39,847 nt of DNA from Candidatus Parcubacteria bacterium (GTDB taxonomy: Bacteria > Patescibacteriota > Minisyncoccia > JAHIHE01 > JAGLIN01), in contig JAGLXN010000040.1 of the NCBI GenBank assembly GCA_023132875.1, positions 1 through 39,847 on the forward strand, in the 5' to 3' direction. The position numbers and the translations under genes are program-made. The notes under the pieces were generated by a model, which did no database searches, was not told the origin of the DNA, and worked only from the letters and a program-made list of their open reading frames with translations. Shown here piece by piece: positions 20,838 to 30,920 of this stretch. Numbering within the stretch: position 1 is the first letter of the stretch; each line of letters starts with the position of its first letter.

Positions 20838-23300
20838 ATGGAAATAATTAGTCAAAAAGAATTGGAGAGGTTATACAATTTACAGAGAAAGGGAAAGTGG
20901 CAGACTGTCCAAAAAAATCAGATGAGATTAAAAGAAAAATTGTTGCAAGATTTTAAAGATGGCTGGTTTAATTACAAAAAACAGCACCCAAATATTGGGC
21001 CTGTTTTTGATTTGAAAAATAGAAATTCACAGGAATTTATAATTGATGAAAAAGTGGCAAATGAATTTAAGTTAAAAGAACACCTTAATGATTTTTTAAT
21101 AAAATCTCAAAATTCTACTGCTGGAATACGAGCTTTTGTGGATATTTATAATAGCCAAAATCCTCAGAAAATGTATAATGATTTGTTTCTTGCTGTTTTG
21201 GTGCAGGCAGAAGCGGAATTTTTAAAACAGATTCACAAAGAAACTCAAAAAAAATTAGAAAATGTCAATATAGACGAACTTTGCCAATCTCTTAGAAAAA
21301 ATATACCAGAGAAAAATATTGAAATTATTGAGGATATTTATAGATTAAAATTAGAGAATGTAATTGAGCTTATTAGAAAGGTCCCAATAAGGCTTGTTGG
21401 CGGAGAGGTGAGGCCACACACGGGTTCTTTTATAGAAATGGAAACGAGAATTTTAGTGCAAAATGGCATAAAAGTTATTACTCTTGAAAAATATTCCGAC
21501 ACTACCGCAATCTATATATTTTCTTATCTGTGCTTTTTGCTTGGCGCAACTGGAGCGACATATTACACTTCTAGCCATTCTTCAAATTATGTGTGTGGCA
21601 GAAAAGTGCTTGCGTCAGACGGATCTCAAATATTGCCTGATGTGTACGAAAATTACAGAATAATACTTAATAGAATTGTTAACGATGATATTTATAAAAG
21701 CAGAGAAGGATATAAGATTAAAATTTCAAAAAGTAATCATCCAAATATCTTAAATAATTTGTCTTATAAAAAAATAGCTAAATTATATTCTTCAATGTTG
21801 AACACGACCAAGGAAGATGTTGAGATTATAAATAAGGCAGCTTCTCGTGGCCATAAAATTATTATTAACGCTTTGAATGGAAGCTTGGGTAAAACCTTAA
21901 AGCCAATTTTTTCCGAACTGGAAATTAATCAAGGTGTTTTTGAATGGCTGTATGAAGAAGAAGACAGTCTTTTTAATACTGGTTTTATTGTTGTTAAATC
22001 AAAGGACAAAAAAACAGGCAGAAATTTATATGGCGTAGAACATTTAGGAGTAGATACAACGATACCTGATATAGTTAACACAATTTCTTATCCAAAACTA
22101 CTAAAAGGCAAACCGCTTGGAACTAAAATATATGAATGTGATCCAGATTCAGATAGATTTGTAATAAAACAGATTATGAATAAAAAGGACATTAGCTTGC
22201 TTGATAAATATGGCATTCAATATTATGAATTAGACAATGACAAAATACTTGCGGCGCCAAGCCCAAATAAAGTTTTTTTATGCTTGGATATTGTTGACTA
22301 TGAATTGATGAAAAACAGGGGAATCTGGGATAATTATTCTTCTCTTTATTTAATTACCTATGTTTCATGGCGCGCCTGGAGCGAGTTTGCTGATTCTGTC
22401 AAAGGTTTTAAAAAAATGGTTACCCTCGTTGGATTCAAAAACTTAACGGCGCTAAAGAAGAAAGTAGAAAAGTGGTATTTTAACACGGATAAACCGGAAT
22501 TAGTTTTGACAGACTCGCTTGGCAATAAAGTAGAAATAAATAGAACTAAGCGTGTTCGCATACATTGCGCGGAAGAGGAAAGCGGAGGAAGAGTCGCTGG
22601 AATGAATAAGGTGTGTCATAATCTTTTGGGAGAGAAAGTAATGATTATGCCAGAAAAAAGTGCTGCCGATTCATTGATTTCGGAACTTATTTATTCATCA
22701 AAATTACATTTGGAAAATAGTTCGGATTATATTATTACTAATTTTTTGGACAACCGTTTTAAAAAATATAATTTGGTGTCTAAAATAGATTTCAGATTAG
22801 ATATTTTACATGGAATTCCGCAAGGCGTAATTGCGCAAATGGATTATAAAAAACAGCAAGTAGAAATGAAAAAAGCAAGCGCGATTAAAACAAATTTTAA
22901 TAACTTCTTCTTTTCACTGGCAAAGGCGGTTGATAATGAACAAATAGTAAAACAAAAAGTGAAAGAAATACTAACAGAAATTATGCCTACGCATAAAGAC
23001 ACATGGTGCTGTTTGGATAAAATTATATTAACAGAAGAATTATTAGCAAAAGGGAAAAAGAGGCCAGAAGGGGTGATTATGACATTTGAACAAAAAAATG
23101 ATTTTATTCCTATTGTTAGTGAACTTGACTTTAGGCCTTCTGGAACAGACCCTTTAAAAAGCAAAGTCTATGGTGACGCTTTCGCTATATTGCCTGCCCA
23201 ACTTGGTCAAATTAAAAAAGATTTTGAAGAATTGGCTCAACGAGATTTATATGAAATTCTTGAAAAATATAATATAAAATCTGTTATTAAAAAAGAATAG
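20838..23300 (+). CDS. Atypical alpha-D-phosphohexomutase (phosphoglucomutase/phosphomannomutase-like), 820 aa
   Basis: Divergent family motifs in order: STAGIR; VGGEVRPHTGSFIEM; TSSHSSNY (cf. TASHNP); CDPDSDRF (cf. DGDxDR); RPSGTDPLKSKVYGDA (cf. RxSGTEPxxxVY). Confidence 0.7.
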   Translation: MEIISQKELERLYNLQRKGKWQTVQKNQMRLKEKLLQDFKDGWFNYKKQHPNIGPVFDLKNRNSQEFIIDEKVANEFKLKEHLNDFLIKSQNSTAGIRAFVDIYNSQNPQKMYNDLFLAVLVQAEAEFLKQIHKETQKKLENVNIDELCQSLRKNIPEKNIEIIEDIYRLKLENVIELIRKVPIRLVGGEVRPHTGSFIEMETRILVQNGIKVITLEKYSDTTAIYIFSYLCFLLGATGATYYTSSHSSNYVCGRKVLASDGSQILPDVYENYRIILNRIVNDDIYKSREGYKIKISKSNHPNILNNLSYKKIAKLYSSMLNTTKEDVEIINKAASRGHKIIINALNGSLGKTLKPIFSELEINQGVFEWLYEEEDSLFNTGFIVVKSKDKKTGRNLYGVEHLGVDTTIPDIVNTISYPKLLKGKPLGTKIYECDPDSDRFVIKQIMNKKDISLLDKYGIQYYELDNDKILAAPSPNKVFLCLDIVDYELMKNRGIWDNYSSLYLITYVSWRAWSEFADSVKGFKKMVTLVGFKNLTALKKKVEKWYFNTDKPELVLTDSLGNKVEINRTKRVRIHCAEEESGGRVAGMNKVCHNLLGEKVMIMPEKSAADSLISELIYSSKLHLENSSDYIITNFLDNRFKKYNLVSKIDFRLDILHGIPQGVIAQMDYKKQQVEMKKASAIKTNFNNFFFSLAKAVDNEQIVKQKVKEILTEIMPTHKDTWCCLDKIILTEELLAKGKKRPEGVIMTFEQKNDFIPIVSELDFRPSGTDPLKSKVYGDAFAILPAQLGQIKKDFEELAQRDLYEILEKYNIKSVIKKE

Positions 23301-25284: not shown

Positions 25285-26181
25285 TTATTTTCTCTCGGCA
25301 AGTTCTTTGAGAATTGTTTTAAGAATTGGAGTCTGCGGGAAATTTATTCCTTCGGGGGGAGTAAATAATTTTCCAGATTTCCATCCAGCACCTATTTCAC
25401 CGTTCCAGTTAAAGTTTTTATCAAGTTCAAGGGCGTAAATATCTCTATTTAAAAGGTTTTTTCCGCCCATTATTCTTCCGTCTAAAAATTTTATATTTTC
25501 GATTTTTTCATTAAACTCAAGAATCATCAATTTGATAAAATCAAGTCCTCTTGTGCCATGATCATGAACAGGTAGTCCTTGATATGTATATTCATTATTT
25601 CGCCAGCATATCTTAAATTCTTTTTCATTTGGCAAATTAAGCATACGCGCTTCAGTTTCTCTTCCGGGAAGATTTTTAGTTTTTTCATAAAGTGTAGCTC
25701 CGTTCTGAACGATAGCTTTTATATTAATTTCTAAAAATGAATCATCGTTGAATTGAGGGACAATAACCTTGTTATTGACTACAATTATCAAATCTTCAAT
25801 CCCTTTTCTGACGGCGGTTCTTTCAGGGTTTGTAATTTCTGATTTGCATCCCAATCCAGTGAAAGATGTGAGATGACAATCAAAAGAAGACTTTGATACT
25901 CTGACAGTAGCCATTAGATGATTTCGTCCGGGTGTTTTTATAATTATTCCCAGCCCTCCAGCTGCGAATCTAATATCTTTCACGCTGCCATTTTCCGGTT
26001 TTGGATCACTGATTATCCGTCTTTCGGCTATGTTGCTTGCTGTTTCAGGATTATCATCAATTTTAATTTTTATTGTTTTTTCAGTTTCTTTAATTATTCT
26101 AGCCTTAACTATGAGAAATTCCTCGCGTTCTTTTCGGGCTGTATAATTATCTAGTTTTGGCAAATTAATAATTTGATTCAT
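25285..26181 (-). CDS. Hypothetical protein
   Basis: 298-aa ORF with own terminator; no family recognised. Confidence 0.75.
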   Translation of the reverse strand: MNQIINLPKLDNYTARKEREEFLIVKARIIKETEKTIKIKIDDNPETASNIAERRIISDPKPENGSVKDIRFAAGGLGIIIKTPGRNHLMATVRVSKSSFDCHLTSFTGLGCKSEITNPERTAVRKGIEDLIIVVNNKVIVPQFNDDSFLEINIKAIVQNGATLYEKTKNLPGRETEARMLNLPNEKEFKICWRNNEYTYQGLPVHDHGTRGLDFIKLMILEFNEKIENIKFLDGRIMGGKNLLNRDIYALELDKNFNWNGEIGAGWKSGKLFTPPEGINFPQTPILKTILKELAERK

Positions 26182-26437: not shown

Positions 26438-27148
26438 TTATTTAATATTATTTATTTCACATAAGTTTTTGCCGATTTTTATCGCTTCAGCCATTTTTAC
26501 AGAGGCCATGTAGTCTGGCATTTCTATTAAATTATTAATAGACATGCCTTCACACCATAAAGTGATATATGGTGTGACAATTACTATTCCAGCTGGTCTG
26601 TTAAACTGGATATCTTTTATATTTTCCCATATTTCCGGCTCCCAGAGAAGCAGAGTTGTTTCTAGAGAGTCTGGTCCATTTCCAAATTCAGTCGAAAGAC
26701 CAATTTTGGATATTAGACCATGAAGTTCTGGCAGTTTCTCTTCTTTATTCCGCAACCTTGTTTCAAGTTCTAATTCCCTGTGTTCAATATTTAATTCTAT
26801 GGCTGCTTCAACGTCGATTGAGCCACATCCCAGTGAGATAAACCCAATTTCATCTTCTTGGTCAACATTGAATTTTCGTACTCCAGCAATTACAATCGCT
26901 TGATCAAACGCTGGCCATCCGCGTTCTTGAAAAATTCTTAAGAGAATAGAATTTTTACCATTTAATACAATCTCATTTTTCTTATCAAATGCCTTTTTGC
27001 ATTTAATGGTTACATCGGAGATTTCCTCAAAGGTCATTCGTCCTATTCGAACTGAACCTCCTCCAGATCTCTTTCCTATCATCTCTGCGAACTTTTCTAT
27101 GTCTGTTATATTAACAGTCAATTTTTCCTCATGTTTATTGTTTGTCAT
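26438..27148 (-). CDS. Hypothetical protein
   Basis: Start chosen at MTNNKHEEK (ATG at 27148) because of upstream CAAGGAGGACAAAAT Shine-Dalgarno; extended -10 TGTTATAAT (reverse complement of 27308-27316). Confidence 0.75.
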   Translation of the reverse strand: MTNNKHEEKLTVNITDIEKFAEMIGKRSGGGSVRIGRMTFEEISDVTIKCKKAFDKKNEIVLNGKNSILLRIFQERGWPAFDQAIVIAGVRKFNVDQEDEIGFISLGCGSIDVEAAIELNIEHRELELETRLRNKEEKLPELHGLISKIGLSTEFGNGPDSLETTLLLWEPEIWENIKDIQFNRPAGIVIVTPYITLWCEGMSINNLIEMPDYMASVKMAEAIKIGKNLCEINNIK

Positions 27149-27403
27149 ATTTTGTCCTCCTTGCAAAACGAGCTCCTTTTTCTCAAAAGGGTTACTAGTG
27201 TTTCACAAGATTTATTTATTGCTCTAATGAGCGATTTCTACTTTCTTAATTAGGAAGTTTCCTTTAAAAAAGCAGATATTTGCTCATTAGAAAAATTATT
27301 AAAGATCATTATAACATACCATAATAAAGCATGACATATATTATTTTTTTGTCAATATGTGATAAATACTAATAAATGATATTTTTCTGTGGATAATTCT
27401 ATT

Positions 27404-27431
27404 TTGCATAATTTTAAAACTATGTTATTAT
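27404..27431 (+). promoter_or_regulatory. Promoter of the RHH-nucleotidyltransferase gene
   Basis: TTGCAT - 16 nt - TATTAT. Confidence 0.5.
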
Positions 27432-27435
27432 ATTT

Positions 27436-27455
27436 GTATGACAAAGTATGACAAA
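27436..27455 (+). promoter_or_regulatory. Tandem 10-bp direct repeat, candidate operator
   Basis: GTATGACAAA GTATGACAAA, two perfect adjacent copies just after the -10 box and upstream of the ATG. Confidence 0.6.
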
Positions 27456-27472
27456 TTTTAATAATATTCAAA

Positions 27473-28273
27473 ATGAGAAATCGTTCAAGAATCACAATTA
27501 CCATAAAAAACGAATTGCTTAAAAATATTGATAGAATTATAGATGGTACTGAAATAAAAAATCGTTCTCACGCGATTGAGTTTTTGTTGGCTAAAAATTT
27601 TGGGGAGCAAAAAATCAAAAAAGCGGTTATTCTTGCTGGGGGAGGAGGAGTAGTGCCAAAAGGAAAAATAAAACCTGTTTCAAGAATTTTGACTGATTGC
27701 AAAGGAAAAATGTTTGTTGAGCATGTTTTTGATTGGCTTAAAAAAGAGGGGATTAAAGAAGTTATAATTTCTGCTGGCGATTTATCATTAGAAGTAAAAG
27801 ACAAAATTGGCGATGGATCTAAATTTGGTTTGCAAGTTTCTTATCTCTCAAAAGATACCGGAACCGCGAGTGTTTTAAAATATCTTGTTAACATTATAGA
27901 CGAGACATTCTTAATGATGAATGGCGATGTTCTATCCGATGTTGATTTGGATGAAATGTTTGATTTTCACAAAAAATCCGGAGGTCTTTGCACAATCGGA
28001 ATGATTTCGGTAAAAGAGCCGTCTTTGTTCGGAACTATAAAACTAAAAGGAAGCCAAATTGTTGATTTTATCGAAAAGCCGAAAGAGGGCAAGGAAGAAT
28101 CTTATTTAATAAATGCCGGGATTTATTTGGTTGAGCCGGAGATTTATAAGTCAGCTTCTTATAAGTGCTTGAGCTTGGAAAAAAATCTTTTCCCAGCTTT
28201 GGCAAAGAAAGGAAATCTTTTCGGATATTATTTGCAGGGAAAATGGTTCCATTTGGATAAAATTGGCAAGTAG
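27473..28273 (+). CDS. Ribbon-helix-helix domain fused to sugar-phosphate nucleotidyltransferase-like domain
   Basis: N-terminal MRNRSRITITIKNELLKNIDRIIDGTEIKNRSHAIEFLLAKNF is RHH/CopG-like; then KKAVILAGGGGVV...MMNGDVLSDVDL...FIEKPKEG...NAGIYLVEPEI is NTP_transferase-like. Confidence 0.85.
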   Translation: MRNRSRITITIKNELLKNIDRIIDGTEIKNRSHAIEFLLAKNFGEQKIKKAVILAGGGGVVPKGKIKPVSRILTDCKGKMFVEHVFDWLKKEGIKEVIISAGDLSLEVKDKIGDGSKFGLQVSYLSKDTGTASVLKYLVNIIDETFLMMNGDVLSDVDLDEMFDFHKKSGGLCTIGMISVKEPSLFGTIKLKGSQIVDFIEKPKEGKEESYLINAGIYLVEPEIYKSASYKCLSLEKNLFPALAKKGNLFGYYLQGKWFHLDKIGK

Positions 28274-28491
28274 TGTCGGTTAAGGTGATACATTGTAGAT
28301 TTTAATTTCACTGATAATAAAAATAAGAATCAACACAGTGTTAAATTGTCAAACTGTTAAATTGTCACACGCCTTGCTTGTCTCTGGCAATTTAACAATT
28401 TGACAATAAAAAACGTTTATAAAACAGCAAGAATTCAAAATAAGCACATCGGTTTCATACTGATCTTAATTAATATTTATTTATACTTAAA

Positions 28492-29565
28492 ATGAAATTT
28501 TTAATAATGGCTGGCGGTAAAGGCACGAGGCTTTGGCCAGTTTCCAGAAAAAACAAGCCGAAACAATTTCAAAAATTGATTAGTGACCAAACGATGCTGC
28601 AAGAAACTGTCAGTCGTCTTTTGTCTTTTGCTTCGTTTAAAGATATTTATGTCGCTACCAATAGATCTTATGCAGGAGAAGTTAAAGAAGAATTGCCTAA
28701 GTTGTCGGCAAGCAATGTCATAGGCGAGCCTGCTTTCAGAGAAAGGGCATCTTGTATTGCGCTTGCTTCAGCTATTTTTTCCAAAGAAGGAGAAGACGAA
28801 ATAATGGCTATTTTTCCTTCAGATCATTATATTAAAAAAGAAAAGGAGCTAATTCAAGTTCTGAAAGAAGCGGAGAAATTTTTAAATGACAATCCTGATC
28901 ATCTAATCGCTGTGGGAGTTAAGCCAACCGGACCAGAAACCGGCTATGGATATATAAACTATAATACAAAAAACATAGCTGGAAAAAATAACAAGAAATT
29001 TTATAAAGTTGAAAAATTTATTGAAAAACCGGATTTAAAAACAGCCAAAAAATATTATCAGGAAAATAATTTTTTATGGAATACCAGTATTTATTTATGG
29101 AAAACTTCGGCAATTATTGATAGATTTAAAAGGTTCATTCCCGATTCATATGAAAGATTATGCAGGATTAAAAAAGCGGTTGGCACTTCTGAATTTAAGG
29201 AAGTGTTAGAAAAAGAATATCCGTTAATGGATATGATCTCAGTGGAATATGGTATATTGGAAAATGACGATAAAACCGTTGTTGTTTCCGCGGACTTGGG
29301 ATGGAGTGATGTCGGAAGCTGGTCAGTGCTTAAAGATTCCTTAATTGATCAGGATAGTCATTTTGTAAAGGGGGAACATTTGGATGTCGGTTCAAAAAAC
29401 CTGCTTGTTTATGGTTCAAAAAAGTTGATTACGACTGTCGGCTTGAAGAATCTGATCATTGTTGATACTGATGACGCCATATTGATATGCGATAAAAATA
29501 ATTCTCAGCTTGTCAAAACTGTCGTAGAAAAACTGGAAAAAGACGGGAAAATAAAATTATTATAA
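28492..29565 (+). CDS. manC: Mannose-1-phosphate guanylyltransferase
   Basis: MKFLIMAGGKGTRLWPVSRKNKPKQFQKL, IFPSDHYI, GYGYI, FIEKPD, WNTSIYLWK, DLGWSDVGSW. Confidence 0.93.
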   Translation: MKFLIMAGGKGTRLWPVSRKNKPKQFQKLISDQTMLQETVSRLLSFASFKDIYVATNRSYAGEVKEELPKLSASNVIGEPAFRERASCIALASAIFSKEGEDEIMAIFPSDHYIKKEKELIQVLKEAEKFLNDNPDHLIAVGVKPTGPETGYGYINYNTKNIAGKNNKKFYKVEKFIEKPDLKTAKKYYQENNFLWNTSIYLWKTSAIIDRFKRFIPDSYERLCRIKKAVGTSEFKEVLEKEYPLMDMISVEYGILENDDKTVVVSADLGWSDVGSWSVLKDSLIDQDSHFVKGEHLDVGSKNLLVYGSKKLITTVGLKNLIIVDTDDAILICDKNNSQLVKTVVEKLEKDGKIKLL

Positions 29566-29587: not shown

Positions 29588-30487
29588 ATGAAAATATTAG
29601 TTACCGGCGGAGCTGGTTTTATTGGTTCTAATTTGGTTCACGATTTAGTTGAAGAAGGTTATGAAATAATTGTTATTGATAATCTTTCTACTGGAAGCAT
29701 AGAGAATATTTCTGATGTAATGGATAAAATAAAATTTATAAAAGCTCCTTGCGCTGAAGTGTCAAATTTTAAGGAGTTAAAGGGCATAGATGGCATATAT
29801 CATTACGGGATTCCTTCTACAACGCAGTTATATCGGGACGATAGATCTCTTGTTGGGCATGCGGTTAATGAATTTATAGAAATTCTTGAACTTGCCAAAA
29901 GAGAAAATTGTAAAGTTATTTACGCGTCTTCCTCGTCAGTATATAATGGCAATGTTCCTCCGTTTCATGAAGAAATGACGGTTCATATAAAAGATTTTTA
30001 CACAGAAGCTCGTTATTTAATGGAAAGAGTAGCGAAGCTTTATAATGATTTTTATGGAGTCAGGTCTGTTGGATTCAGATTTTTTAGCGTATATGGTCCT
30101 CGCGAAGAAGCGAAGAAAGACTTTGCCAATCTTGTTTCGCAATTTTTATGGGACATGAAAGAAGGAAAAGCACCGCTGATTTATGGAGATGGAACACAGA
30201 CCAGAGATTTTACTTATGTAGACGATATTAATCGCGGTTTCAGGCTTGGAATGGAGGGTGATATAGACGGTGATGTCTTTAATCTTGGAACCGGCAGATG
30301 TTATAGCTTAAATGAATTAGTTGATATGCTCAATGAAATTCTCAATATTGACATTCAGCCGGTTTATAAAGAAAATCCGATTCAAAATTATGTTCAGGAA
30401 ACATTGGCTGATGCTTCCAAAGCCAAAGAGCATTTTGGTTTTGAGCCAAGAGTTCATTTAAAAGAGGGAATTGGAAAAATTATTTAA
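29588..30487 (+). CDS. NAD-dependent epimerase/dehydratase (UDP-glucose 4-epimerase-like)
   Basis: MKILVTGGAGFIGSNLVHDLVEEGYEIIVIDNLSTG; ASSSSVYN; GDGTQTRDFTYVDDINRGF; YMERVAK variant of YxxxK. Confidence 0.93.
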   Translation: MKILVTGGAGFIGSNLVHDLVEEGYEIIVIDNLSTGSIENISDVMDKIKFIKAPCAEVSNFKELKGIDGIYHYGIPSTTQLYRDDRSLVGHAVNEFIEILELAKRENCKVIYASSSSVYNGNVPPFHEEMTVHIKDFYTEARYLMERVAKLYNDFYGVRSVGFRFFSVYGPREEAKKDFANLVSQFLWDMKEGKAPLIYGDGTQTRDFTYVDDINRGFRLGMEGDIDGDVFNLGTGRCYSLNELVDMLNEILNIDIQPVYKENPIQNYVQETLADASKAKEHFGFEPRVHLKEGIGKII

Positions 30488-30494
30488 TATTTTT

Positions 30495-30920
30495 ATGGAA
30501 TTTTTTAAAAATCGCCATCCAAAAAGATTCGCGAAATTCTCAATAGTGGGCAGTTTTAATTTTTTGGTTGATATAATAGTTTTAAATATATTAAGTTATG
30601 TAACGGGATTTAATAAAGGTGTTTTCGCGGCTATTTTCAGCGCGATTTCTTTTTTGCTTGCGAATGTGAACAGTTATTACTTAAATAAAAAATGGACATT
30701 CAAGAGCAATAGTAAAAATTCAAGATATAAAGTGTTTTTGGCAGTAAGTATTATGGGAGTTTTTGTAAATGCAGTCGTAGTTTATAATTTTACCACATAT
30801 ATTAATCAGACTTATTTTTCTGATATTGTATGGTTGAATATCTCGAAAATAGTAGCAACATTGTTGGTAGTATTCTTCAATTATTATAGTTATAAAAAAT
30901 ATGTTTTTAGTGGAAATTAA
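30495..30920 (+). CDS. GtrA family membrane protein
   Basis: MEFFKNRHPKRFAKFSIVGSFNFLVDIIVLNILS...LANVNSYYLNKKWTF; start at 30495 avoids overlap with the upstream gene. Confidence 0.88.
   Translation: MEFFKNRHPKRFAKFSIVGSFNFLVDIIVLNILSYVTGFNKGVFAAIFSAISFLLANVNSYYLNKKWTFKSNSKNSRYKVFLAVSIMGVFVNAVVVYNFTTYINQTYFSDIVWLNISKIVATLLVVFFNYYSYKKYVFSGN

Follow-up and report, generated by a model that had tools for sequence, protein, structure and literature searches.

NadR and BirA are HTH–enzyme fusions, which control the pathway of their own substrate. In NikR, a ribbon-helix-helix (RHH) protein, the residues of the R-x-T-x-T strand contact the GTATGA site. In PutA, an RHH domain at the N-terminus is joined to a metabolic enzyme, and the protein represses its own operon autogenously (PMC5293562). 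GMPPA, a dead copy of GDP-mannose pyrophosphorylase and a non-catalytic partner of GMPPB, can sense GDP-mannose (PMC11228364). At glycolytic and gluconeogenic genes of the Thermococcales, the sites of TrmBL1/Tgr lie either upstream of BRE/TATA or downstream of TATA (PMC4706686).

The window analyzed here is a stretch of 39,847 nucleotides from a Candidatus Parcubacteria genome. It contains an open reading frame of 266 residues (27473–28273, forward strand), which a sequence-only reading had interpreted as an RHH domain fused to a nucleotidyltransferase. The fusion was borne out by a Pfam match for the nucleotidyltransferase part, by NikR-model matches, and by the conserved architecture. In our assessment, the product is a transcription regulator that senses sugar and controls its own gene, with a probability of about 0.7. 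The sequence data establish the fusion and its conservation, the operator repeat with its association, and the loss of catalytic residues. Its DNA binding, for which the evidence is comparative only, its ligand, the sign of regulation, and the co-transcription with manC are all inferred.

The NTP_transferase domain (GDP-mannose-pyrophosphorylase-like, NTase) covers residues 50–258 (27620–28246, forward strand). Residues 50–253 match Pfam PF00483 with an E-value of 8e-23 (81.6 bits, cut-off 21.2). The entry 7x8j was the top match both by PDB sequence (5e-22) and by fold in Foldseek (2.7e-20), and the nearest folds were the GDP-mannose pyrophosphorylases VTC1 and GMPPB. The window protein satisfied both the profile and the fold criteria of the sugar-1-phosphate nucleotidyltransferase fold, and failed to reach the curated score of the mannose-1-phosphate guanylyltransferase model NF052502 (94.9 bits vs. 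a cut-off of 440).

The NikR-type RHH domain occupies residues 1–43 (approximately 4–43; 27473–27601, forward strand). Pfam RHH_1, applied to residues 1–56 alone, yielded 18.5 bits, just under its cut-off of 20.5, and the NCBIfam nikR model matched the RHH part at 3e-6, far under its equivalog cut-off. A profile built from 24 N-termini of the family retrieved Escherichia coli NikR (PDB 1q5v) at 3e-7. The R-x-T-x-T recognition strand of NikR aligns with Arg6, Thr8, and Thr10 of the window protein; this strand and the NRS motif are shared with NikR, which satisfies the conserved-recognition-strand criterion for RHH/CopG–NikR domains. Among 59 scored homologues (58 bacterial proteins and one from Woesearchaeota), R6 is conserved in 48, T8 in 54, T10 and R31 in 58 each, and S32 in all. 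The nickel-binding C-terminal domain of NikR is absent, and the C-terminal part is NTP_transferase. In the AF2 model, calculated from a 27-sequence alignment (mean pLDDT 83), the NTase fold was confident. The RHH region formed two helices (13–22 and 31–43) at pLDDT values of 63–75, and its strand remained unpaired in the monomer. Confidence in the RHH part of the model is thus only modest, for which reason the RHH assignment rests on sequence.

Downstream of the fusion gene and on the same strand lie manC (mannose-1-phosphate guanylyltransferase with the ManC beta-helix, 28492–29565), an NAD-dependent sugar epimerase/dehydratase (29588–30487), and a small open reading frame (30471–30920), for which we keep the earlier name of a GtrA-like membrane protein. 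This arrangement agrees with the initial annotation. The manC gene is adjacent in eight loci, and adjoins the RHH-NTase gene in all window-clade loci read; the epimerase is found at +2 in five loci, and the same neighbor cluster at +3 in two. Co-regulation of manC with the RHH-NTase gene is probable, the co-transcription being inferred. The earlier suggestion that the neighbors are targets gained only indirect support, from this adjacency and from the location of the genome's sole perfect operator copy (see below). The RHH-NTase–manC spacer measures 218 bp in the window vs. 18–30 bp in four relatives, and contains a 30-nt inverted repeat (28338–28414, 83% complementary, 17-nt loop). Because the spacer of the relatives is so short, the repeat may be a small mobile element, and it is probably an insertion in the window lineage. 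It could uncouple manC from the predicted operator.

Across the family, the immediate same-strand neighbors of RHH-NTase genes include manC (7), glpX FBPase (4), PGK (4), GAPDH (3), and PfkB (4); transketolase, phosphorylase, and phosphoglucomutase/phosphomannomutase (PGM/PMM) genes were also found. Elsewhere in the window, an 820-aa protein (20838–23300) has only weak PGM/PMM similarity, and in one related genome a homologue of it immediately precedes the RHH-NTase gene. Two further proteins upstream of the fusion gene (25285–26181 and 26438–27148, both on the reverse strand) have no Pfam match.

The adjacency of manC also admits a reading in which the NTase domain is only a scaffold for oligomerization or protein–protein contacts, for example by pairing with ManC in the way that GMPPA pairs with GMPPB, and senses no metabolite on DNA. 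The GMPPA/GMPPB complex is among the closest folds, and GMPPA itself sets the precedent of a non-catalytic partner. The conserved pocket motifs GD, EKP, and NAG speak for ligand binding instead, and we regard a pure scaffold as improbable. Such a role would not be exclusive of a sugar-sensing regulator, because GMPPA itself senses GDP-mannose.

The alignment of the 59 homologues confirmed an erosion that had been noticed in the sequence alone, namely that the usual signature LAGGxGTRLxPLT...PKP is degenerate and the GD, EKP, and NAG segments are kept. In the nucleotide/catalytic segment (LAGGGGVVPKGKIKPVSRIL, 27620–27712, forward strand), both the catalytic Arg and the PKP-Lys of GxGxxxR...PK are lost. 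At the C-terminus (28241–28270, forward strand), KWFHLDKIGK replaces (Q/K)WFDxGTxExY..., with loss of the second metal Asp (WxD to WFH) and truncation of the helix. The GG loop, the metal-binding GD (first Asp), the EKP lysine, and NAG remain. The window protein does not meet the residue criterion of an active sugar nucleotidyltransferase, which comprises the catalytic Arg, the Lys, and two metal Asp residues.

Within the scored set, 34 of the 59 proteins keep Arg/Lys, the PK-lysine, GD, EKP, and WxD, and 25 do not. Most of the archaeal proteins read (17/20) match the full N-terminal signature pattern. Parsimony yielded seven changes in catalytic state, at least four of which are forced by well-supported branches. 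In the window clade, neither the PK-lysine nor the second Asp survives in any of the six readable members, all of which have a scrambled signature loop. The clade is under purifying selection, with a dN/dS in its closest pair of 0.04 over the NTase and 0.15 over the RHH domain. Its identity to intact members is 52% over the RHH and 37% over the NTase. The sequence-only reading had offered two options, a trigger enzyme or a nucleotidyltransferase fold repurposed for effector binding, and both appear to hold on different branches. To judge from their residues, the members with an intact catalytic set are probably trigger enzymes, and the window clade fits a nucleotidyltransferase fold that would have been kept as a sensor after the inferred loss of catalysis.

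Another sugar NTase is found in the vicinity of 19 of the 25 eroded members, vs. 2 of the 34 intact ones. We excluded this association as evidence because the tree contains too few independent events. A second eroded clade (ten loci) is found near a separate GlmU-like nucleotidyltransferase, and its neighbors are often YvcK-like, GAPDH, pyruvate kinase, and inositol-phosphatase-like genes.

It could be argued that the window protein still functions as a nucleotidyltransferase by means of an unusual active site and that the RHH adds only autoregulation, in the manner of a PutA-like trigger enzyme. The kept GG loop, GD, EKP lysine, and NAG are compatible with this proposal, as are the purifying selection on the NTase domain and the intact state of most relatives. 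The absence of the catalytic Arg, the Lys, and the second metal Asp throughout the clade, together with the truncated C-terminal helix and a bona fide manC next door, renders it unlikely in our view.

A feature absent from the earlier reading is a perfect 10-bp direct repeat, GTATGACAAA-GTATGACAAA, at 27436–27455 (forward strand; copies 27436–27445 and 27446–27455), which we propose as the operator. Just upstream lies a putative sigma-70-type promoter, TTTGCA-17-TATTAT (27403–27431, forward strand), assigned by consensus match; such a match is no commoner than in shuffles. The predicted operator coincides with the expected start of transcription, as would suit a repressor, and the same promoter–operator spacing is also visible in one relative (L134).

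The motif TATGACA-N3-TATGACA was fixed from the window alone, before the other promoters were read. In its general form, GTATGAYA with a 10-bp period, the repeat precedes RHH-NTase genes in Patescibacteria and archaea. In Patescibacteria, a score of 13/14 or higher was reached by 20 of 59 RHH-NTase promoters and by 1 of 289 controls taken from the same loci (p = 3e-16). When 8-mers were counted without bias, GTATGATA came first (20/59 vs. 3/289), and the TATGA spacings peaked at 10 bp (28), 20 bp (6), and 30 bp (3). In a fresh archaeal test set, at a looser threshold (score of 12 or higher), 13 of 20 RHH-NTase promoters carried the motif vs. 2 of 85 controls (p = 5e-10); most of these sites immediately precede the BRE/TATA box. 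These p-values overstate the effect because related sequences are not independent; the loci span many families with different neighbors. The TATGAY box is entirely missing from 21 of the 59 promoters, which means either that autoregulation is not general in the family or that the operator has drifted.

In the 59 genomes, the exact pattern TATGAYA-N3-TATGAYA occurs at 25 sites vs. 5 for the reversed pattern, and about 15 of the sites are upstream of RHH-NTase genes. CPR sites cluster at the RHH-NTase locus, sometimes heading its operon. Among the bacterial off-locus sites, one is at a PEP synthase promoter; the others are uninformative or within coding sequence. The window genome has a single perfect copy, at the RHH-NTase promoter, and we therefore claim no wider regulon there. 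The E. coli nikA promoter carries GTATGACGAATACTTAAAATCGTCATAC, the half-site of which, GTATGAC, is identical to the window box.

The GTATGAYA repeats might belong to another, unidentified regulator or to a promoter element, the RHH-NTase gene being merely one target. TATGAT does resemble a −10 element, and sites are also found before other carbon genes. The TATGAC variants are not −10-like, and the reversed pattern is much rarer. Furthermore, the site tracks the RHH-NTase gene across two domains with different neighbors and promoter machinery, and NikR, the nearest RHH, has its GTATGA half-site upstream of nikA. On this evidence, we consider an unrelated factor doubtful and retain the RHH domain as the predicted partner of the repeat.

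In the archaeal loci, a PGM/PMM gene follows the RHH-NTase in 14 of 20 cases, often overlapping or abutting. In the first 40 archaeal genomes, off-locus perfect sites (TATGATRAAGTATGATR) precede enolase, PFK, type II GAPDH, and FBPase_3; among 43 fresh genomes, there were two such sites before type II GAPDH and one before a glpX-aldolase. The fresh set contained 23 sites vs. 3 for the reversed control. In total, 7 of the 12 archaeal off-locus perfect sites are at glycolysis or gluconeogenesis genes (binomial 9e-10, assuming that 2% of genes qualify), and the other five precede a membrane pyrophosphatase and unclear genes. With its operator at GAPDH, enolase, PFK, and FBPase promoters, the DPANN RHH-NTase looks like a glycolysis/gluconeogenesis regulator. 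The position of the sites relative to BRE/TATA is mixed, and the two FBPase_3 promoters differ. A TrmBL1-like rule, in which upstream sites activate and downstream sites repress, could not be adopted with this geometry, and we claim no sign of regulation.

A glpX-FBPase gene is transcribed, in four archaeal loci, from a region that carries a site and is either close to the RHH-NTase operon or divergent from it; a class I aldolase follows the gene in three of them. In one archaeal genome (G735), the operator is separated from GAPDH by a short conserved open reading frame of about 40 aa. A similar one follows a perfect site in another (G796), where no GAPDH was seen.

The same-family orthologues show 66–89% identity in five genomes, and one more is cut by a contig end. 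With the count restricted to genomes whose match starts at profile position 6 or earlier, the window's class yielded full-length RHH-NTases in 16 of 384 genomes. A phylum-wide sample of Patescibacteria had them in 44 of 380, and the DPANN archaeal phylum that contains a Woesearchaeota MAG (L033) in about 85 of 279. The search for the same architecture elsewhere, advised at the outset, thus returned more than 100 genomes in two domains of life, which rules out two genes joined by a sequencing or assembly error. A fusion artifact or a decaying gene without function, for which only the eroded signature and the MAG origin of the data could be cited, is refuted by this conservation, by the intact frame and low dN/dS, and by the RHH being the better-conserved part. 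A viral contig scan gave no relative, and a phage origin was rejected.

In a tree with plain NTases as the outgroup, the RHH-NTases formed one group, with one plain NTase falling inside. Nearly all bacterial members made up a single clade nested within the archaeal ones; one was placed elsewhere among the archaea. This suggests a transfer from DPANN to CPR, although the tree was a quick one and its root relied on a single outgroup. RHH-NTases apparently constitute a large, undescribed family of tiny bacteria and tiny archaea. We found no literature on RHH domains with nucleotidyltransferases or on CPR or DPANN regulators; most subscription papers were outside the search, and the novelty is provisional.

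The best reading of the family is an autoregulatory trigger enzyme for central sugar metabolism, with DNA binding and ligand predicted. On three counts the family fits this definition: it has a DNA-binding domain, the domain is fused to an enzyme fold, and a repeat resembling an operator lies at the gene's own promoter. The further requirement of catalysis in the same polypeptide is not fulfilled by the window clade, as far as residues can tell, and the residues are intact elsewhere. The shared DNA target, before the family's own genes and before archaeal sugar-burning genes, makes it look like a sugar-sensing gene switch. In the proposed mechanism, a dimer of two RHH domains would use the R-x-T-x-T strand to bind the tandem GTATGAYA boxes in the promoter of its own gene, where the boxes are spaced by one helical turn. 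The sensor would be the NTase domain, presumably descended from a GDP-mannose-pyrophosphorylase-like enzyme; it may bind a hexose-1-phosphate, an NTP, or an NDP-sugar, and the bound ligand would change the DNA affinity or the state of oligomerization. The NTase of most members would still catalyze, as PutA does for proline, and would also make an NDP-sugar from the product of the neighboring PGM/PMM. In the window clade, catalysis would have been lost, the adjacent dedicated manC would make the NDP-sugar, and the RHH-NTase would serve as the sensor-regulator of the RHH-NTase–manC–epimerase–gtrA cluster. A broader scenario, which we advance tentatively and hold at slightly less than even odds, is that RHH-NTases are master regulators that sense sugar nucleotides and, in DPANN archaea, control glycolysis/gluconeogenesis together with NDP-sugar synthesis. 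They would have passed with the GTATGAYA operator to Patescibacteria, where one pair of protein and operator became functional at a bacterial promoter; several bacterial lineages, including that of the window, would then have lost catalysis independently and retained the protein purely as a regulator.

In the literature searched, we found no paper on the regulation of central carbon metabolism in the tiny genomes of Patescibacteria and DPANN archaea; the RHH-NTase offers a candidate regulator, a predicted operator, and predicted targets for both. The recurrent conversion of an enzyme-regulator to a pure regulator makes enzyme-to-transcription-factor steps comparable on one tree. With a regulator–operator pair apparently common to bacteria and archaea, the transfer of a circuit across domains becomes directly testable.

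Among the known systems, NikR has the closest RHH domain by sequence, sharing the R-x-T-x-T strand and, upstream of nikA, the GTATGA half-site. It differs in its nickel-binding C-terminal domain, the place of the sensor being taken by the NTase fold in the RHH-NTases, and in the arrangement of its site (GTATGA-N16-TCATAC), as opposed to 10-bp direct repeats. PutA (RHH–proline dehydrogenase/P5CDH) likewise joins an N-terminal RHH to a metabolic enzyme fold, but the enzyme is unrelated, its catalysis is kept, whereas that of the window clade is inferred to be lost, and the RHH-NTases are distributed in CPR and DPANN. The archaeal target set and site positions resemble those of TrmBL1/Tgr, which belongs to an unrelated protein family, recognizes the palindromic TGM motif, and is euryarchaeal. 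NadR and BirA are enzyme–regulator fusions too, but with different DNA-binding and catalytic folds. The GDP-mannose pyrophosphorylases (VTC1/GMPPB, with GMPPA as the sensor paralogue) are the top hits of the NTase domain both in fold and in sequence; in contrast to them, the RHH-NTase has an RHH and no beta-helix C-terminal domain, and it is predicted to act on DNA, not as an enzyme subunit.
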